64,000 nucleotides of DNA. Source: Marinomonas profundi. Lineage in GTDB: Bacteria > Pseudomonadota > Gammaproteobacteria > Pseudomonadales > Marinomonadaceae. Under the pieces are notes generated by a model that was given only the letters and a program-made list of their open reading frames with translations, did no database searches and was not told where the DNA came from. The position numbers and the translations under genes are program-made. Location of the stretch: assembly GCF_020694005.1 (NCBI RefSeq), contig NZ_CP073013.1, forward strand, positions 2,428,578 through 2,492,577, in the 5' to 3' direction. Of this stretch, positions 14,124-50,712 are shown piece by piece (within the stretch, counting starts at the first letter, position 1; each line of letters opens with the position of its first letter).

Positions 14124-14143
14124 AGGGGTAATATCGGGGGTAA
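14124..14143 (+). promoter_or_regulatory. Putative integrase arm-type sites, left
   Basis: Two copies of GGGGTAA 11 bp apart (AGGGGTAA at 14124, GGGGGTAA ending at 14143), plus an inverted copy TTACCCCT at 14161-14168 just before the integrase start. The same 20-bp arrangement, with one base changed, recurs at 50693-50712 beside attR. Position and repetition on both arms suggest integrase or accessory-factor binding. The inverted copy overlaps the integrase leader, so autoregulation is possible. Confidence 0.6.
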
Positions 14144-14170: not shown

Positions 14171-15337
14171 ATGCTCACTGATTTAAAAATAAAGTCGCTA
14201 AAACCAAAGAGTAAACCGTACAAGGTGTTGGATGGTGACCGCTTGTATCTGCAAGTCATGGCAACTGGTAAAAAGTTCTGGAGGATGCGGTATAAAATAA
14301 ATGGAAAAGACAGTTTCTTTACAATTGGCGAATATCCAATGGTAAGTCTTTACCACGCTCGGCGCGAGCGAGACAAAGCCGCCGAACAGATTTCGCTTGG
14401 TTTGGATCCAAACATAGAGAAAAAAGCCGATGAAATGCGAAAAAAGAGCGAGGATTCAAGCACTTTTTACGCTGTGAGCGAACAGTATTATTCAAAGAAA
14501 AAAGACGGTTGGAGTGATCACTATGCATGGCAATATGGCTCGGTCATGGAAAACGACGTTTACCCCATTATTGGTGATATGCCAATCTCTCGAATTACCG
14601 CCCCGTACCTACTGAAGATAATAGAAAGCATGGAAAAAAGAGGCGCGCCCACCATGGCAATATTGGCGCGTTTGTTTATGGGGCAGGTGTTTCGATATGC
14701 TGGTGCCAGGTTAATGGTTGAGGCAGATCCTACCGTATTTTTAGCGGGTGTTATTACTCGGCCAAAAGTCCGGCACGCGCCAGCGCTTGAGAAAGATCAA
14801 ATTATTACGTTGTTTAAAAACTTGGCCGTTTATAACGGCTTTCCCGCCACCATCATTGCGGTGAAATTGTTGGCGCATACTTTTATGCGGACAAAAGAGC
14901 TTAGATGCATGCAATGGTCGTTTATTCAGGGTGATGCCGTGGTATTTCCTGAGCACATTATGAAAAAGCGAGAAAAGCAAATAGTGCCATTAACAGCTAG
15001 GTCATTAGAGTTAATCGACGAGCTAAGAAAATACACCGGCGGTCATGAATTGATGTTTCCCAATGTGCGTGACTCGTCACGATCCATGAGTAACACAACA
15101 ATAAATCGAGTCATTGAGCGGCTAGGCTTTAAAGGGGATTTCAGCGGCCACGGATTTAGAAGCACCGCGTCCACTATGCTAAATGAAATGGGTTATCGAG
15201 AAGACGCAATAGAAAGACAGCTTTCACACGTCGAGCGAAAAGGCCAGCGCCGCGCCTACAACCATGGCGAATACATGGCAGAGCGTCGGGAAATGATGGA
15301 GTATTGGTCTGGTTTTCTGGTAGGTTTGGGTGTTTGA
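14171..15337 (+). CDS. int: Tyrosine-family site-specific integrase
   Basis: 388 residues. An N-terminal DUF4102-type arm-binding domain (KSLKPKSKPYKVLDGDRLYLQV...) is followed by a core-binding SAM-like helical domain (about 95-190) and the catalytic domain. Visible catalytic residues: Arg in HTFMRTKELR, HGFR, LSH and the nucleophile Tyr in RRAYNHGEY, within the P4-type integrase subfamily. It lies 165 bp inside attL and points inward, the usual arrangement for integrating at the trpG core. It presumably catalyses integration, and excision with a directionality factor (the AlpA-like protein is a candidate). Confidence 0.95.
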   Translation: MLTDLKIKSLKPKSKPYKVLDGDRLYLQVMATGKKFWRMRYKINGKDSFFTIGEYPMVSLYHARRERDKAAEQISLGLDPNIEKKADEMRKKSEDSSTFYAVSEQYYSKKKDGWSDHYAWQYGSVMENDVYPIIGDMPISRITAPYLLKIIESMEKRGAPTMAILARLFMGQVFRYAGARLMVEADPTVFLAGVITRPKVRHAPALEKDQIITLFKNLAVYNGFPATIIAVKLLAHTFMRTKELRCMQWSFIQGDAVVFPEHIMKKREKQIVPLTARSLELIDELRKYTGGHELMFPNVRDSSRSMSNTTINRVIERLGFKGDFSGHGFRSTASTMLNEMGYREDAIERQLSHVERKGQRRAYNHGEYMAERREMMEYWSGFLVGLGV

Positions 15338-24365: not shown

Positions 24366-25037
24366 ATGGGGTATTTAGGATCAAAAGCGGCAAGCGGGGC
24401 ATACCAAGCTATTATTGCCAACATGCCGCCGCATGATACCTATATCGAAACCCACTTGGGCGGCGGGGCCATCATGTTACGCAAACCAAGCGTGGCGCGT
24501 TCGATAGGTATCGACATTGACCAAGCTGCCATCGACCTAAACGAATACCACGGCGTTGATTTACATTGTGGTGACGCCGTGGAATTTTTAGACTCGTTCG
24601 ACTTTGCCAGCGCGGCGCGCGTATTGATCTATTCAGATCCGCCCTATGTTGCCGCTACGCGAACATCTAGGAATCGTTACAAACACGAATACAACGACGA
24701 CGACCATATAAAATTATTGAACCAGTTAAAACAGTGCCAGCAAAAAGGCGCCATGGTCATGGTGTCCGGTTACCCGTCGGCGCTGTATGAAAATAACCTA
24801 GATTGGCGAAACATCGAATTTCAAGTCATGACACGCGGCGGCGTTAGAACCGAGAAGCTATGGTTCAGTTTTGACATCGATAAAGTGAACTGGTCAACCT
24901 ACGCGGGGGAAAACTTCACAGATCGCCAGCGCATTAAACGCAAAGCGGAAGGGTGGGCGAAAAAATACCAAGCCCTACCAGAAATGGAACGAATCGCCAT
25001 CTTGAGCGAACTACTAAAATGCGAAGGTACCACATAG
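24366..25037 (+). CDS. D12-class N6-adenine DNA methyltransferase
   Basis: 223 residues with the alpha-class order: SAM-binding motif ETHLGGGAIML (28-38), the target-recognition region, and the catalytic DPPY at 91-94. AGGGG precedes the ATG. Phage adenine methylases of this type protect DNA from restriction or alter regulation; the recognition sequence cannot be read from the protein. The gene is a monocistronic-looking cassette bracketed by CATAG-N10-CTATG sites, two of which follow its stop. Confidence 0.88.
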   Translation: MGYLGSKAASGAYQAIIANMPPHDTYIETHLGGGAIMLRKPSVARSIGIDIDQAAIDLNEYHGVDLHCGDAVEFLDSFDFASAARVLIYSDPPYVAATRTSRNRYKHEYNDDDHIKLLNQLKQCQQKGAMVMVSGYPSALYENNLDWRNIEFQVMTRGGVRTEKLWFSFDIDKVNWSTYAGENFTDRQRIKRKAEGWAKKYQALPEMERIAILSELLKCEGTT

Positions 25038-25129: not shown

Positions 25130-26455
25130 TTATCTGTGCTTTTCTTGAAACTCTATTAGCTCTTGTTTTTTCTTTGGCCCAATGCCGCGACGTTTTACAA
25201 ATTCATTCGGGTCAATCTCTAGGCATTTTTCAATGCTGGTGTAGCCTTCGGCGTAGAGTTCCCATGCAGCGGGTAATCCAAGACGTGCCAGTTTTCCGGC
25301 GAACCATTCTTGGCCGTGCGTTAATAGCGCGTCTTCGTCCAGCTCGCCGAAATGTTCCTCGGTGAATATAGGGTGTTCATTGAGATAGTCGTCTATAGCC
25401 TTAATCATATCTTCATCAGATAAACGTGATTCCACTATTTCGCGGTAGGCAATGAGGTTGTCTAAGAACTCTTCGGCAATGTCGGGTTCGTCGTCTGCAG
25501 TAAGCTCTAGCCACTCGGCGCTTTTATCTTTCTTGTATTTAGTTGGTAGTGACTTGTACTCGTCATTTGAAAAGGTCTTGAATGCCATTTTTAAATCATC
25601 AAGCGAGGTTTGAGGGCTGATATCTGGAACGTACTGCCAAGTAATGGTTTTGAGTTCAGCTAGATCAACGGCATCAAAAAGTATTTCAGACAGTCTATCA
25701 AGCTGCTTTTCGGTTAAGTCGTAATTGTCGGAAAGAGCATCTTGTGCCGCGTCGCAGGATTCAATAAAGGCTTTTACTTCCTCTTTGGTGTTAAGTTCCT
25801 TAACCATTTGTCGCGCTTCTGTTTTGGTAGTGGGGGTTGGAACGGTAGCGGCGTTGGTTTTTTTATACGATTTTTGTTCGGTGTAAGGCGTACTGTTCGA
25901 TGTGCTTTTTACGGACGCCGATTGACCATTAATGCTGATCGGCGCAAAGACAGTGGTTTTGTTTTGTTCGTAAGACGCTGCGTTTTTCTTTTTAAGCCCT
26001 TTGTTGTTGTCTATGCCGACATAAACGAATAAAGCAAAAATGACTAAAAAACCGATAGGACCTAAGAAAAGACCGCCAATAATCCCGAAAAAAAGAGACA
26101 CAAAGAAAATGGCTTTTTTGCTCATGGGCTCTTTGGTTTTTTTATTGGCTTCTTTTACAGAGTTAAGAAAACCTGTTTTTTTCTTGGTCGGTGGTGTGTT
26201 GGTTTTTTGTTGATCAAATGATTGCCACGCTGGGGCGTCGCTGTTTTCTGCGAGTTCCATAAGATCAAAGCGAAAGCTCTTTTCTGAATCGGAAGTAAAG
26301 CACTTTGCATAGACTTTATAATTATCGACTGCAAGCGGCATGATGGTGCGGCGAGTGCCAGGCGAACTACCACCATGATAAATGATTTCAAACGCTTCCC
26401 CCGTTCGTAAATCAACGGCTTCTTTCATTGCTTGGCGTATTTCTCTGTAATCCAT
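25130..26455 (-). CDS. WYL-like / membrane / helix-hairpin-helix accessory protein
   Basis: 441 residues, opposite in direction to all neighbouring early genes, with its own strong ribosome site (AAGGAGG). About residues 18-68 resemble a WYL domain (FEIIYHGG, TRRTIMPL, YKVYAKC, SFRFDLMEL). Two hydrophobic helices span 115-147. After a Ser/Thr/Lys linker come acidic helices and a C-terminal helix-hairpin-helix (EFVKRRGIGPKKKQELIEF). This order suggests a membrane-tethered sensor of nucleic acid or nucleotide ligand. Autonomous transcription from a prophage accessory site fits a moron such as a superinfection-exclusion or defence gene; that is inference. Confidence 0.7.
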   Translation of the reverse strand: MDYREIRQAMKEAVDLRTGEAFEIIYHGGSSPGTRRTIMPLAVDNYKVYAKCFTSDSEKSFRFDLMELAENSDAPAWQSFDQQKTNTPPTKKKTGFLNSVKEANKKTKEPMSKKAIFFVSLFFGIIGGLFLGPIGFLVIFALFVYVGIDNNKGLKKKNAASYEQNKTTVFAPISINGQSASVKSTSNSTPYTEQKSYKKTNAATVPTPTTKTEARQMVKELNTKEEVKAFIESCDAAQDALSDNYDLTEKQLDRLSEILFDAVDLAELKTITWQYVPDISPQTSLDDLKMAFKTFSNDEYKSLPTKYKKDKSAEWLELTADDEPDIAEEFLDNLIAYREIVESRLSDEDMIKAIDDYLNEHPIFTEEHFGELDEDALLTHGQEWFAGKLARLGLPAAWELYAEGYTSIEKCLEIDPNEFVKRRGIGPKKKQELIEFQEKHR

Positions 26456-43638: not shown

Positions 43639-44366
43639 TGACAGATCGTTTTGATTTGCCCGTCTGGATCAAAGAAGGCACGGAAGTTCAAAAGCTAGCC
43701 AGTGGTTTTGCAAGCTTTTGGGACAAAGCCGAGGGCTGGATAAAAACGCCGCTCAATCAACTGGACGCGGAAACCTGTCACCCCAAAATACTAAAAATGC
43801 TAGCGTATCAGCGCGATATGAATTTACTGCCAAACGAGCCGGAAAGTTTGTTTCGTAAGCGAGTAAAACACGCGGTTAAAAACGCCCAAGACGCTGGCAG
43901 TTATGCAGGATTTAAAGCAATTTTCGAGCGTTTAGACGTGCCATTGCTGGGGCAAATAGAGCGAGATCCATTAACAGATTGGGACGTGATAACGCTATGG
44001 CTGACGGACTCGGCAATAACGCAAGAACCGGAACTAGGTCAATACATTATCAGGACGTATGGCCGTACTTGTCGACGCTATGAATTTTTATTAGTCGACG
44101 CATTGCCTGCAGTTAATGTGCATTCGTTTTCGTCCAGTGTGGAGCGCAAACAAGACAAAGCTAACGCGGTAAATGAACATATTTTTTCTGATGATTTGGA
44201 CGGCTACAAAATAGGAAAAATAGCAGCAAACTGGATGGACAGAAGCCAAGAAATTTTAAATGTGCGTGAACCGTGGATATTTGACGACGCGGTGAGCGGA
44301 ATGAATGTGACGTTTTTAAGTGCGTCGTTGGAACGAGCCGTCGACAGCGTGAGAGGTAACGAATAA
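43638..44366 (+). CDS. I: Baseplate/tail protein I
   Basis: 242 residues from ATG 43638 (GAGGG upstream; GTG 43635 also possible). gpI-like: CHPKILKMLAYQRDMNLL and FRKRVKHAVKNAQDAGSYAGFKAIF. Connects the baseplate wedge to the fibres. The stop overlaps the first fibre gene (TAATG). Confidence 0.88.
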   Translation: MTDRFDLPVWIKEGTEVQKLASGFASFWDKAEGWIKTPLNQLDAETCHPKILKMLAYQRDMNLLPNEPESLFRKRVKHAVKNAQDAGSYAGFKAIFERLDVPLLGQIERDPLTDWDVITLWLTDSAITQEPELGQYIIRTYGRTCRRYEFLLVDALPAVNVHSFSSSVERKQDKANAVNEHIFSDDLDGYKIGKIAANWMDRSQEILNVREPWIFDDAVSGMNVTFLSASLERAVDSVRGNE

Positions 44367-44935
44367 TGGCAGAAATAGTAAGCGGAACGGTAACGGACGC
44401 GGGCGCGCGGTACATAGCGCGAAAAGTGGCGGCGCTGGAAGACGTGGTGATAACACACTTTGTTTTGGCAAATGTGCCGGGAGCCAGCGAAACAACAACG
44501 GCGAATCCAGCAGCGGGCTTGCCAGCGGTGTCTCAAAGAGTTGGCGGAAATATCTCAGTTGGAGCGCCGCGTTATAACAACGACAACGCTGTAACGTATT
44601 CGCTCGTTCTCGGGTCAGACGTTGGCGATTTCGATTTTAATTTTTACGGTGCAGTAACAGATACGGGTGTATTGCTCGCATTTCAGTATTTGCCGGTGAA
44701 CAGAAAGAGAAAGGGAATCGGTCAGGTCATTAATCGAAATTTGGTGGTGCCATTTTCGAACGCCAAGCAAATGACGGGGGCGGATTTGCCAATCGAATCG
44801 TGGCAATACGACTACGAAAGCGAAATAGAAGCCATGCAAATGGGTGTCATGCAAAACAGTGTCGCGACTATTTCAGCGCTGAACAGCGCCATTAAAAATC
44901 ACGAAAGATTACTGAAATTGGAGAACAAAATATGA
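44366..44935 (+). CDS. Tail-collar fibre protein (DUF3751-type N-terminal domain)
   Basis: 189 residues. Begins EIVSGTVTDAGARYIARKVA and continues ITHFVLANVPGA, the usual start of phage tail-collar fibres that attach to the baseplate. It ends in a coiled coil. It lacks a receptor-binding tip, which appears to be supplied by the next, coupled gene: a split fibre. Confidence 0.85.
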   Translation: MAEIVSGTVTDAGARYIARKVAALEDVVITHFVLANVPGASETTTANPAAGLPAVSQRVGGNISVGAPRYNNDNAVTYSLVLGSDVGDFDFNFYGAVTDTGVLLAFQYLPVNRKRKGIGQVINRNLVVPFSNAKQMTGADLPIESWQYDYESEIEAMQMGVMQNSVATISALNSAIKNHERLLKLENKI

Positions 44936-46164
44936 GCGAGCTAACGCAAGCAACACAAGCGCTAACAAGCGCAACACAGCAAATGCAATCGGCAAAAGAA
45001 TCGTTTGAAGACATTCGTGAAGACGCAACGAAGGCGATTAATGACGTAAATGCAAATTTCGCTACCAAGGCCGCATCGCTAACGATTACAGCTACGGCAG
45101 GCTATCGCAACGCGGTTGAAAAAGCGTCCGGCGGTCGTAATACGATGATTTTGGACGCCCAAGGCAATGAAAATATTATGGTCGTGATTCCTCGTTTTAA
45201 CTGCGAAGACATCAATGCCGCCGTGTTGGCCGCAACGGGTGTCGACATGCAGTTGGGCGTAGGTACACATCCCGCGTTTCGCACAAATGGCGTGGATCGC
45301 GGGGAAATTTTGGTGGGTAAATATCAAGCATCGGCGGGCGTGGGCGGCGGTTGCTCTGTAATCGGCGGTGTTCAGCCGCGTACTAGCGTGAACTACGACA
45401 CAGCAAAATCAATGTCAGCGAACAAAGGCGCGAACTGGCACATGATGTCAATCCACGAGTGGGCTGCGATAGCGTTGTGGTCGCTAGCAAACGATACAGT
45501 GCCGCGTGGTAACACATATTACGGATTAGCTCACGATGCGCGCCACGAAACAGCATTGCGTGCTGACAACGGCATGCCCGGCAGCGTATCGGGTACGCCG
45601 AGAACGGATACGGGGTCAGGCCCAGTTACGTGGGCGCATGATCACAGCGCCTACGGCGTGCAAGATTTAGTCGGCAACGTGTGGGAATGGCTCGATCAGA
45701 TGCGCCTAGAAGATGGCCGAATTATCACAACGCTGGATAACGATCCATCTATCGTTGAGGAAAATTGGCACCGTCACACGGCGTATTTTGATTCGACGTC
45801 ATCGTCGCAATCTGGCACGGGCGACGTAGGATCATCGATCTTGAGCAGCACAATCACAAATCGAAACGGCCCAGTCGGCAACGACGCACACGATAATCCG
45901 TATGTGCATGACGCGTTGTTTTCGACGATTGCGAAAGATCCGAGCTATGCGCCAAACGAAGCCCTTCGTCGCTTGCTGATTGAGTCGGCAGGCGATACGG
46001 GTCTAGCAGGTGGTTTGTATGTGCGCAATTATGGCAGCCGATTCCCGCTGCGCGGTGGCAATTGGTACAACGGCTCGGCTGCCGGGTTGGGCGCGCTCAA
46101 TCTGGGCAATGCTCGTTCGTTTGCGAGCACGAGCATCGGGTTCCGCCCCGCTTTATTTGTGTAG
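44932..46164 (+). CDS. DGR target: tail-fibre tip with C-type-lectin/FGE-sulfatase fold and variable repeat
   Basis: 410 residues, ATGA-coupled to the collar fibre. Residues 1-50 form a coiled coil. About 80-407 match the formylglycine-generating-enzyme/CLec fold (WHMMSIHEWAAIALW, YGVQDLVGNVWEWLDQMRL, RFPLRGGNW, IGFRPA). The variable repeat encodes residues 369-407, nearly the C-terminus, as in Bordetella phage Mtd. Sites now changed from the template: 369, 379, 383, 392, 397, 399 and 401 (Ser, Tyr, Ala, Gly, Phe, Ser, Ser in place of Asn), plus one silent change. Presumed receptor-binding protein. Confidence 0.93.
   Translation: MSELTQATQALTSATQQMQSAKESFEDIREDATKAINDVNANFATKAASLTITATAGYRNAVEKASGGRNTMILDAQGNENIMVVIPRFNCEDINAAVLAATGVDMQLGVGTHPAFRTNGVDRGEILVGKYQASAGVGGGCSVIGGVQPRTSVNYDTAKSMSANKGANWHMMSIHEWAAIALWSLANDTVPRGNTYYGLAHDARHETALRADNGMPGSVSGTPRTDTGSGPVTWAHDHSAYGVQDLVGNVWEWLDQMRLEDGRIITTLDNDPSIVEENWHRHTAYFDSTSSSQSGTGDVGSSILSSTITNRNGPVGNDAHDNPYVHDALFSTIAKDPSYAPNEALRRLLIESAGDTGLAGGLYVRNYGSRFPLRGGNWYNGSAAGLGALNLGNARSFASTSIGFRPALFV
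46036..46152 (+). repeat. DGR variable repeat (VR), 117 bp
   Basis: Aligns without gaps to 46603-46719. All 11 mismatches lie where the template has A (A to G seven times, A to T three times, A to C once); the 91 non-A positions are identical. The last 18 bp (ATCGGGTTCCGCCCCGCT) are unchanged and GC-rich, the expected initiation-of-mutagenic-homology (IMH) end. The stop codon is at 46162-46164. Confidence 0.97.
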
Positions 46165-46184
46165 TGAGTTGTGAATCTTTGATG

Positions 46185-46202
46185 GCTGGGCGATAGCCCA
46201 GC
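46185..46202 (+). promoter_or_regulatory. Hairpin/cruciform with GATA (GRNA) tetraloop downstream of VR
   Basis: GCTGGGC-GATA-GCCCAGC: 7-bp perfect stem and a four-base loop fitting the GRNA rule seen at DGR targets such as Bordetella phage BPP-1, where a DNA cruciform after VR promotes retrohoming. It lies 33 bp past the VR end. Only a short GTTTTAC follows, so it would be a weak terminator. Confidence 0.75.
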
Positions 46203-46225
46203 GTTTTACTTGTCAGCAGTATGCG

Positions 46226-46591
46226 ATGGAGGTCGTTTTGACAGTATTAGTGATAGACGAAAAATGTAGAGAAATGATGATGTATGGATACAACGCTGTG
46301 CAGCAATTCCCAAAGCACGAAAAACACGTTTTGGGCGCTGAAATCAGGCTATCTATGCTGACTGTGCAGCGACTAATCATCACAGCGTACAAACGCTATC
46401 ACAAGAAAACGACGTTAACTGATTTAGATATCGAACTGTCAATACTACGTCGACGAGTAAGGCTAGCCAAAGATTTGCGTTATATCGATGTGAAAAAATA
46501 TCAGCTTTGGTCAGAAAAGCTGGTCGAAATAGGAAAAATGGTGGGCGGCTGGATAAAGGCCGCAAACCCACAGAAACAGGCTGTTGCATGA
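46226..46591 (+). CDS. avd: DGR accessory variability determinant Avd
   Basis: 121 residues (or 117 from TTG 46238, which has GGAGG 5 bp upstream and may be the true start). Helical and basic, four-helix-bundle length, with the C-terminal GKMVGGWIKAANPQKQ resembling the end of BPP-1 Avd (GRILGSWIARVN). Avd forms a pentamer that binds the reverse transcriptase and template RNA and is needed for retrohoming. It sits between VR and TR, the common DGR order; its stop overlaps the ATG of the RT frame. Confidence 0.9.
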   Translation: MEVVLTVLVIDEKCREMMMYGYNAVQQFPKHEKHVLGAEIRLSMLTVQRLIITAYKRYHKKTTLTDLDIELSILRRRVRLAKDLRYIDVKKYQLWSEKLVEIGKMVGGWIKAANPQKQAVA

Positions 46592-47883
46592 TGAATAAGC
46601 GGAACCGATTCCCGCTACGCGGTGGCAATTGGAACAACGGCTCGAATGCCGGGTTGGGCGCGCTCAATCTGAACAATGCTCGTTCGAATGCGAACACGAA
46701 CATCGGGTTCCGCCCCGCTCTTGATAATGCCAGAAACAGTAACGCCAAGGCGTGCTGTCAGTGCGGTCATGAAAAGGATGCAGCATCCTCGCCGATTGGC
46801 GGAACACGAATCACCTCGCTCGATGCGTCGAGCGAGTGTTTATACGAACAGATTTATCAGTTTGAAAACATACTGAATGCGGCATATCAGTGTCGGCTCG
46901 GTAAAACAACAAACACGGCGGTATTGTCGTTTTTTAACAATCTCGAAGAAAACGTGATCAACATACAGAATGAATTGGTCTGGCAAATGTATCAAATGTC
47001 GCTCTATCATCATTTTTATGTGTTTGAGCCAAAGCGCCGGCTAATTAGCGCGCCGCATTTTCGGGACAGGGTTGTGCACAGGGCGATTTATAACATCATC
47101 GAACCGCTGTTTGATCGCCAATATATCTATGATTCCTATGCGTGTCGCAAAGGTAAAGGCACGCACAAGGGTGCGGATCGGGCGCAATCGTTCGTGCAGC
47201 AAGTCGAGCGCAAACACGGCAAAGCGTATGCGCTAAAAGCAGACATTAGTAAGTATTTTTCGAGCATCGATCACAGCATATTGAAATCGATACTAGATCA
47301 AAAATTAAGGTGCCAGCGCACCAAGGCGCTGTTGTTTTACATTATCGACAATAGCCCAAGCGACGCGCCGGGAGTTGGCATCCCGCTGGGAAATTTGACT
47401 AGCCAAGTGTTTGCCAACGTGTATTTGCACGAATTGGATTGGTTCGTAAAGCACACGCTAAAAGCGCCAAAATACATGCGCTACATGGACGATTTTACAA
47501 TCGTGCATCACGACAAAGCGCAATTGCACGCGTGGCGTGAACAGATAGAGCGGTTTCTGTGGTCAAAATTGAGACTGCAAACAAACAGCAAAACGCAAGT
47601 ATTCCCGATCGCAAAACACAACGGGAGGGCGTTGGATTTCCTCGGCTATCGGATTTACTCAACGCATCGGCTGTTACGCAAATGCAGCGTGAAAAGAATT
47701 AAAACCAAGCTGCGTAAATTTCAAAAGAAATACGCCGCGGGAGAGGTCGATCTAATCGACATACAGCAAAACATACAAAGCTGGCTGGGCCATGCGCGCC
47801 ACGCTAGCACACAGCGATTAACGCAAAAACTACTGAGCATAAAACTCAAGAGAGGCAAAGATGGAACAGACATACATTTTTAA
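46588..47883 (+). CDS. DGR reverse transcriptase
   Basis: 431 residues from ATG 46588. The RT core starts near LYEQIYQFENIL and shows ADISKYFSSID (motif 3), the DGR-type IPLGNLTSQVFANVYL (motif 4, GxxxSQ instead of the retroviral QGxxxSP), catalytic YMDD at 299-302, and LQTNSKTQVF and LDFLGYRI. It copies the template RNA with frequent misincorporation at adenines. No ATG, GTG or TTG occurs in frame between the TR and the RT core, so the TR and the following structured stretch are read as residues 6-80 unless an unusual start is used. Confidence 0.93.
   Translation: MMNKRNRFPLRGGNWNNGSNAGLGALNLNNARSNANTNIGFRPALDNARNSNAKACCQCGHEKDAASSPIGGTRITSLDASSECLYEQIYQFENILNAAYQCRLGKTTNTAVLSFFNNLEENVINIQNELVWQMYQMSLYHHFYVFEPKRRLISAPHFRDRVVHRAIYNIIEPLFDRQYIYDSYACRKGKGTHKGADRAQSFVQQVERKHGKAYALKADISKYFSSIDHSILKSILDQKLRCQRTKALLFYIIDNSPSDAPGVGIPLGNLTSQVFANVYLHELDWFVKHTLKAPKYMRYMDDFTIVHHDKAQLHAWREQIERFLWSKLRLQTNSKTQVFPIAKHNGRALDFLGYRIYSTHRLLRKCSVKRIKTKLRKFQKKYAAGEVDLIDIQQNIQSWLGHARHASTQRLTQKLLSIKLKRGKDGTDIHF
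46603..46719 (+). repeat. DGR template repeat (TR), 117 bp
   Basis: Starts 11 bp after the avd stop, 567 bp downstream of the VR in the same orientation. It has 26 adenines, largely as AAC/AAT codons in the VR frame, so each targeted Asn codon can reach up to 15 amino acids without stops. It is also in frame with the RT gene. Confidence 0.97.
46815..46836 (+). ncRNA. Strong hairpin in the post-TR spacer of the DGR RNA
   Basis: A 9-bp perfect stem (CTCGCTCGA with its complement) around TGCG, about 95 bp after the TR. A smaller GGATG/CATCC hairpin precedes it at about 46776-46788. In BPP-1 a structured spacer of about this length between TR and RT is needed for cDNA priming, so this is probably the equivalent part of the template RNA. 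Confidence 0.6.
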
Positions 47884-48130
47884 CAACGAAAGTCACAAAG
47901 ATTTCACAGCGGCGTACATGACCGCATTGGGCATGGATCAAGAGCAAATCGATTCAGTCATCGCGCAGCGCGATTTCGAACTATCGCAAAACGTGCAAAA
48001 ACGAGAGGCCGCGTACAAGCGCGAATCAGATCCGCTTTACATGGAGTGGCAGTACGATCAGACGGAAGAAGCGGGACAGAAATGGCGTGATAAGGTCGCA
48101 GAGATCAAAGAGCGCTTTCCGCTGGCTTAA
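47861..48130 (+). CDS. Small phage protein after the DGR RT
   Basis: 89 residues, ATG 47861 with AGAGG, overlapping the RT end by 23 bp. Acidic, helical (FTAAYMTALGMDQEQIDSVIAQRDFELSQ). It resembles small tail-fibre chaperone-like proteins in size and place, but no family is recognised. It could serve the fibre or the DGR. Confidence 0.6.
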   Translation: MEQTYIFNNESHKDFTAAYMTALGMDQEQIDSVIAQRDFELSQNVQKREAAYKRESDPLYMEWQYDQTEEAGQKWRDKVAEIKERFPLA

Positions 48131-50692: not shown

Positions 50693-50712
50693 AGGGGTAA
50701 TATAGGGGGTAA
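50693..50712 (+). promoter_or_regulatory. Putative integrase arm-type sites, right
   Basis: Same paired GGGGTAA arrangement as 14124-14143, 19 of 20 bases identical, 63 bp from the attR core. A possible promoter for trpG (TTGAAC at 50679, 16 bp, TATAGG at 50701) overlaps it. Confidence 0.6.

Follow-up and report, generated by a model that had tools for sequence, protein, structure and literature searches.

In the diversity-generating retroelement (DGR) of Bordetella phage BPP-1, a spacer RNA recruits the reverse transcriptase (RT) together with the accessory protein Avd, and an internal adenine primes complementary DNA (cDNA) synthesis into the template repeat (TR); copying goes wrong at adenines, and the cDNA then takes the place of the variable repeat (VR) (PMC12875486). 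Among the closest described systems to the one discussed here are those of ACA1 and ACA2, Peduoviridae of Pseudoalteromonas that carry a DGR and have VHML and VP58.5 as near kin (PMC10612066). In these phages, translation of the TR adds an N-terminal extension to the RT, an arrangement described as uncommon in other DGRs (PMC10612066, section 3.13), and their authors, writing in 2023, were aware of no further DGR among P2-like phages (PMC10612066); the P2-like Burkholderia phage KS5 has an RT that its own authors held not to be BPP-1-like (PMC3091744). Here, we describe a DGR in a 64-kb stretch of the Marinomonas profundi chromosome (contig NZ_CP073013.1, positions 2,428,578 to 2,492,577 of the forward strand), referred to as a whole as the window, with all coordinates given as positions within it and L-numbers denoting the loci or contigs collected for comparison. 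We put at roughly 85% the reading that this is a complete DGR in a P2/HP1-type prophage, predicted from its sequence to diversify a fibre tip by mutagenic retrohoming, with both the TR and the spacer RNA lying inside the reading frame of the RT.

A complete DGR had been claimed at 44932-47883 from the letters alone (the sequence-only reading), and all of its components are indeed found there, on a single strand (+) and in the order proposed, namely a fibre gene with a C-terminal VR, a hairpin, avd, TR and RT. The target fibre gene (44932-46164, +) encodes 410 aa and matches PF03781 (E 1.4e-5; 25.3 bits against a cut-off of 23.3) and phrog_2889 (E 2.3e-139), with the VR at 46036-46152 (+) covering residues 369-407. 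A hairpin/cruciform follows 32 nt 3' of the VR (46185-46202, +), its 7-bp GC-rich stem and GATA loop, which fits GRNA, falling within the limits given for phage DGR hairpins in PMC3240598 (stem of 7-10 bp, GRNA loop, distance of 4-34 bp). The accessory variability determinant, avd (46226-46591, +), is recognized by PF22296 (1.3e-32), by NF033474 (112.8 bits, 8.3e-33; cut-off 80) and by phrog_3206, annotated 'Avd protein of DGR'. Then come the TR (46603-46719, +), an RT-14-like spacer RNA (46714-46842, +) and the RT, whose frame (46591-47883, +; PF00078 8.4e-18) gives 430 aa from this ATG, a second in-frame ATG lying at 46588. Both of the RT motifs that had been pointed out, LGNLTSQ and YMDD, are present.

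The TR and VR form an ungapped 117-nt repeat at an offset of 567, with 11 mismatches of which all 11 fall on TR adenines, the near-exclusive adenine divergence by which a DGR pair is recognized; 11 random sites among 117 positions, 26 of them A, would give this pattern with a chance of 8.9e-9. Seven of the eight changed VR codons correspond to AAC or AAT (Asn) codons in the TR. The VR is the only partner of the TR in the 3.65-Mb host chromosome, so that a second TR or VR elsewhere is ruled out and the host genome holds a single pair. Comparable loci were collected by their RT core (201, of which 159 are unique), with a TR found in 142. In these 142 unique loci, 1727 of 1802 mismatches lie at TR adenines, a proportion to be read in the knowledge that the finder favoured such pairs, setting a lower penalty for mismatches at A and requiring at least 60% of mismatches to be there; the pair in the window is also found without this adenine-favouring finder.

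Comparison with a related contig, L006, adds a second view of the repeats. Between the two, 87 of 1043 sites differ in the RT core and 299 of 1099 in the fibre gene upstream of the VR; the TR differs at just one site (115/116 identical) and the VR at 12 of 116, 11 of them at TR adenines. The remaining VR difference is the sole site at which the TRs differ, and each VR agrees there with its own TR. VR change over a constant TR in related prophages was what the sequence-only reading had proposed to look for, and L006 provides it with a near-constant TR; the VR variation spread evenly over non-adenine positions that it had named as counting against a DGR is not seen, the single exception tracking the difference in the TR. 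The pattern resembles the trace that would be expected from retrohoming in both lineages. Conservation of the TR was rejected as a special feature in its own right, as 116-nt windows of the RT core also reach 0.9% divergence from L006. Across 44932-48130 the divergence from L006 is patchy (27% in the fibre gene before the VR, 29% in the small open reading frame (ORF) after the RT, and only 1-11% from the end of the VR to the RT), as if the DGR core had been exchanged or kept as a block.

The same repeats bear on whether the element is an inactive DGR remnant whose fibre is no longer diversified, an explanation that we regard as improbable. In its favour, a frameshift has been reported in the RT of the near-identical prophage proACA1-A (PMC10612066). 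In the window, all three frames (fibre, avd and RT) are uninterrupted, LGNLTSQ and YMDD are intact, and the VR and TR differ at adenines with no other mutations, all of which argue against decay, as do the open RT frames in 42 of 43 relatives, window included.

One feature that sets this DGR apart from BPP-1 is the position of the template. The RT frame opens at the ATGs at 46588 and 46591, which overlap the avd stop, and continues through the TR (codons 5-43) and the next 120 nt to a core that begins at residue 84; it can therefore be divided into a TR-coded leader up to residue 43, a linker (44-83) and the DGR RT core (84-430), and the reading phase of the TR matches that of the VR in the fibre gene. 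An ordinary BPP-1-type DGR would provide an unlikely alternative, in which the RT starts later or at a non-canonical codon, the open frame through the TR is fortuitous and the TR-spacer RNA is purely non-coding. To weigh the two we use the 50 unique loci whose RT core shares 60% identity or more with that of the window, seven of which have no TR found; the other 43, the short-spacer set, have a spacer spanning 120-127 nt and, in every case (43/43), a GRNA-loop hairpin with a stem of at least 6 bp no more than 80 nt after the VR. In 42 of these 43 loci, window included, the RT frame runs open through the TR from an ATG that overlaps the stop codon of a frame as long as avd would be (90 codons or more), and in 42 the VR and TR frames agree. 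Spacer lengths of 121 (36 loci), 124 (three) and 127 nt (two) differ by threes, which counts against a fortuitous open frame; the two other lengths are 120 nt in L143, where the frame nevertheless stays open and the TR end has probably been misplaced by one base, and 122 nt in VHML. Between the TR end and the core, 28 of the 43 have no ATG, GTG or TTG from which a later start could be made, and an ATG or GTG no more than 33 nt before the core, found in 80/80 loci with long spacers (150-215 nt), occurs in only 6/42 short-spacer loci (window excluded). The RTs of VP58.5 and ACA1 have, moreover, been annotated from the upstream ATG.

The spacer itself carries two signatures. From the 43 loci, 37 distinct spacers (six identical ones dropped) were aligned, giving a consensus structure with five helices and 29 pairs in all; the first helix joins the 3' end of the TR to the spacer. 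Paired cells make up 96.1%, against 84.9% when shuffled and 27-43% when slid. Both partners show changes in 16 of the 29 pairs, and the alignment reaches a covariation score of 0.376, compared with 0.154 for shuffled and no more than 0.078 for slid versions. Helices 3, 4 and 5 covary, while helix 1 shows one-sided or no variation, so that covariation neither supports nor opposes it. The same nucleotides are also RT-frame codons (about 42-84), and a coding signal was sought in 35 ungapped spacers (37 of 43 qualified, two duplicates being dropped), related sequences whose counts are not independent. Third codon positions differ most (0.355, against 0.198 and 0.219 for the first and second), the pooled ratio of nonsynonymous to synonymous change (omega) is 0.337 in the RT frame against 1.07 and 1.09 in the other two, and stops number 0/1400 in the RT frame compared with 35/1365 and 149/1365. 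The constraint confined to the RT frame argues against a purely non-coding spacer, and it is likely, from these alignments, that the spacer is RNA and protein-coding at once.

Several observations pull the other way, both on the frame and on the RNA. The VHML record (L086) has an RT frame interrupted between TR and core, with an ATG 18 nt before the core, and its RT is annotated from a later start; 15 of the 43 loci contain some ATG, GTG or TTG in the stretch from TR to core; and the TR of the window contains an in-frame TTG, making a later start possible. The spacer has an RT-frame stop in 59 of the 80 long-spacer loci and none in the other 21, so that an open spacer alone is weak evidence of translation, and the leader is predicted to be disordered. 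The low omega of the TR (0.116) may reflect only constraint on the VR and was rejected as evidence of translation in the RT, since TR codons are VR codons too. As for the RNA, the alignment of kin used to score covariation is also the one that yielded the consensus structure, a circumstance that favours this structure over the slid versions. The spacer in the window folds no better than its own synonymous recodings (z -0.85), nor is the 307-nt TR-spacer stretch much better folded than shuffles (z -1.62); folding energy, not being unusual, was rejected as evidence and covariation used instead. Membership of a described family is also partial: RT-14 (RF02921) matches the spacer end to end (46718-46837) at 39.4 bits, below its gathering score of 48.1, so that we call it RT-14-like only. 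The VHML record is the sole exception of the 43 on the open frame, and may be a sequencing error or a real loss.

The comparison with known RNA families can be taken a little further. The inner part of the 3' hairpin in the RT-14 model is lacking in the spacer of the window, and RT-14 also matches a long-spacer DGR, L034, above the gathering score (50.8 bits) and beginning at the TR end. In an Rfam scan of 13 loci at gathering level, L034 gave the sole RT-14 match and the short-spacer loci scanned were unrecognized. Phage_DGR (RF03022) is absent among the three matches up to E 1 in 46600-46950 of the window. The RT-n RNA motifs were reportedly introduced by Weinberg et al. in 2017 (NAR); our search of the open-licence literature for RT-14 or Phage_DGR found nothing useful.

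The RT itself belongs with those of other DGRs. A quick maximum-likelihood tree, with SH-aLRT as its only support, was built from 66 rows, comprising 24 short-spacer RTs, four with spacers of 132-137 nt, BPP-1, 28 random other long-spacer RTs, and, as outgroups from related genomes, six group II-type RTs (five above the TIGR04416 cut-off, and L224 taken from the retron search) and three retron-type RTs (L218 above its family cut-off, L219 and L220 below). The long-branch L112, L116, L122 and L129, seven rows without a TR and four with the TR downstream were left out, and a first tree was discarded in which the outgroup rows L003 and L004 were wrongly extracted frames with a branch length of 10. 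The 57 DGR RTs, BPP-1 included, group together (99) and are split from the group II-type RTs (98) and from the retron-type RTs (99); a place for the RT among group II introns or retrons, which would tell against a DGR, is thus not what the tree gives. The score against TIGR04416 is 125.7 bits, below the cut-off of 300, and the nearest solved protein by sequence is a DGR RT, 8ub7 (E 1.6e-59; best group II RT, 1.9e-18), onto which the predicted fold also superposes (TM 0.90 on target). We take 8ub7 to be the RT of BPP-1, and the motif-4 form LGNLTSQ is presumably a mark of DGR RTs. An RT attributed by its source to Marinomonas spartinae (P0119) is 100% identical to that of a same-genus genome (G012), and the description of the phage as marine is likely to be right.

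Within the tree the 24 short-spacer rows, one of them L123 (115 nt, 57% identity), are set apart by a branch (94), and together with the four 132-137-nt loci form a set at 96, which makes a single origin of the fusion likely; on this sequence evidence the template RNA and the RT N-terminus were likely merged once. A protein search whose query included the TR part brought up 3309 relatives (E no higher than 1e-5), and of the 120 listed among them 115 have a TR-like motif within the first 50 residues. To place the RNA relative to this event, R1, a covariance model of the coding spacers, was searched on the window and 56 other chosen loci. It matches 24 of 50 long-spacer loci, in which the RT has a start of its own, at E no higher than 0.001, with match starts ranging from 12 nt upstream to 2 nt downstream of the end of the TR, and finds no match in BPP-1. 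In the long-spacer loci that match, the median gap from RNA to RT core is 59 nt, against no gap in the window. As the RNA stands at the same place in these loci it is likely older than the fusion, which would then, as is likely from the same comparison, have arisen through loss of the stretch holding a separate RT start. In the predicted structure, RT residues 1-74 have a pLDDT under 50, and the leader looks disordered, as if it were tolerated rather than needed.

The claim of a CLec/FGE-fold fibre target with a C-terminal VR gains support from homology to TaqVP, the target of a Thermus aquaticus prophage DGR (structure 5vf4, PMC6328139) and, at the thresholds applied, the one solved structure related to the fibre protein (sequence E 3.4e-49, profile E 3.1e-78; Foldseek 2.0e-19 with a poor model of mean pLDDT 63). 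TaqVP likewise has a C-terminal VR and a C-type-lectin (CLec) fold of the FGE subtype (PMC6328139); unlike it, the fibre protein of the window has about 45 extra N-terminal residues, predicted at low confidence to be helical. Fibre residues 372-407, most of the VR, have a pLDDT under 50, the model being too poor to describe the VR surface. Even the TR-coded residues 5-43 of the RT match TaqVP (residues 344-382). From this homology the protein is probably the tail-fibre tip, or antireceptor, with an FGE-subtype C-type-lectin fold. That the FGE-like target is instead not the receptor-binding tip, so that diversification leaves host range unchanged, strikes us as very unlikely. It is helped by the fact that the target's function is read from homology only, and by the unexpectedly high amounts of antireceptor protein reported (PMC10612066). 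The gene, on the other hand, directly follows that for the N-terminal part of a tail-collar fibre protein (44366-44935, +; PF12571 3.3e-19), the predicted baseplate attachment of the fibre, and holds the same position in ACA1, VHML and VP58.5, while the missing cross-infection between the hosts of ACA1 and ACA2 has been put down, as likely, to antireceptor divergence (PMC10612066). The switchable host range suggested for the phage may follow from such a tip.

Our favoured interpretation, a complete DGR with its template inside the RT frame, would operate as follows. The avd-TR-spacer-RT transcript would serve twice, as mRNA and as template RNA. As mRNA, translation from the ATG overlapping the avd stop would yield an RT with a TR-coded leader, predicted to be disordered; as template RNA, the spacer would fold, bind RT and Avd, and prime cDNA synthesis into the TR, after the manner of BPP-1. 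Adenines would be miscopied and the cDNA would replace the VR beside the GRNA hairpin, giving altered fibre tips with which some progeny may bind altered receptors. More tentatively, and with the odds somewhat against it, one phage-DGR clade may have absorbed its template RNA into the RT gene, a separate RT start and a leader of about 60 nt having been lost so that TR and spacer became both the cDNA template/primer and the first 80-odd codons. Ribosomes making the RT would then have to cross the RNA that the RT has to bind, and we infer that translation and reverse transcription might compete for the one RNA, throttling mutagenesis and favouring copying in cis.

A small ORF of 89 aa (47861-48130, +; phrog_5714) overlaps the end of the RT, and its kin have been noted as a third module gene in the ACA phages (PMC10612066). 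A phrog_5714 homologue stands just after the RT in all 41 short-spacer loci with enough sequence, in 8 of the 12 other loci whose spacers measure 100-150 nt, in 3 of 66 long-spacer loci, in 7 of 17 loci without a detected TR and in none of five others. By this distribution the small ORF travels with the DGR lineage, and one might guess that it acts as a fibre-assembly helper.

The DGR sits in a prophage with likely bounds at 14124-50712 (+; 36.6 kb), set by 20-nt repeats with one mismatch (14124-14143 and 50693-50712) that are likely att sites, no exact repeats of at least 12 having been found that could serve. Its assignment as P2/HP1-type (Peduoviridae) is confirmed by an integrase (14171-15337), a GpA-type replication protein, a P2-family capsid, leftward portal and terminase genes (- strand) and the HP1_ORF34 baseplate protein (PF05125 8.8e-89, PF05840 1.5e-77, PF25759 3.4e-39). 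Further genes encode a sheath (DUF2586), a tape measure, gpJ- and gpI-like proteins and the collar fibre, and an IMG/VR provirus of 36,595 bp (L017) is the same DNA, at 100% identity across the 9739 bases compared. At 25130-26455 (-) a 441-aa protein of unknown function is encoded beside a DNA methyltransferase gene (24366-25037, +; phrog_56), the two being possibly prophage cargo. Immediately downstream of the right att-like repeat is an ORF resembling, by eye, trpG (50766), followed by trpD- and trpC-like ORFs. Elsewhere in the host genome, group II intron-type RT genes are found at 487-488 kb, 522 kb and 901 kb, the copies at 522 and 901 kb having identical scores and that at 487 kb being in two pieces.

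How much of this is new can be judged against the described systems. A DGR in a P2-like contractile phage is indeed present, as the sequence-only reading held, while its novelty falls to ACA1 and ACA2, Peduoviridae that already have one; both the cassette and the existence of a TR-RT fusion were known before. In the available parts of PMC10612066 we found no description of the spacer RNA or of the spread of the fusion, nor, in those of the DGR surveys PMC8144416 and PMC6642488, any mention of a TR within the RT frame; within the open-licence literature, subscription papers lying outside the search, no paper was found on the fusion's spread or the spacer's dual constraint. The in-frame template is the part most worth pursuing: an RNA expected to fold, bind RT and prime cDNA is likely also translated, and both constraints are legible in one alignment, which offers a natural system for studying the balance of DGR activity against RT synthesis. 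There is also a warning for annotation, in that TR-coded residues in annotated DGR RTs are template and not enzyme core, the phrog_1423 profile being one that includes them.

Of the known systems, BPP-1 (L088) shares the order mtd-VR, avd, TR, spacer and brt, as well as a structured spacer, and its RT is 39% identical to that of the window over 76%; unlike the window, its brt is annotated to start after the spacer, and its spacer RNA is Phage_DGR (RF03022, 104.7 bits). The Vibrio phages VP58.5 and VHML (Vhmlvirus) have the same cassette as the window, the VP58.5 RT being 74% identical and annotated as starting with the ATG that sits at the avd stop. The VHML RT frame, unlike that of the window, is interrupted between TR and core, and both phages differ from the window phage elsewhere, combining a P2-like tail with other modules that are lambda-/N15-like (PMC10612066). 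ACA1 and ACA2, in a different host, share a P2-like make-up with an HP1-type tail, the gene order, the kind of target and the small gene after the RT, with an RT about 73% identical over 98% of the query and, in ACA1, likewise annotated from the upstream ATG. With its frame running from the avd stop through the TR, its short spacer and its small gene after the RT, the DGR of the window belongs to this ACA/VHML type, as an integrated relative of ACA1 and ACA2 whose kin now widen to 42 non-identical loci of the same layout.

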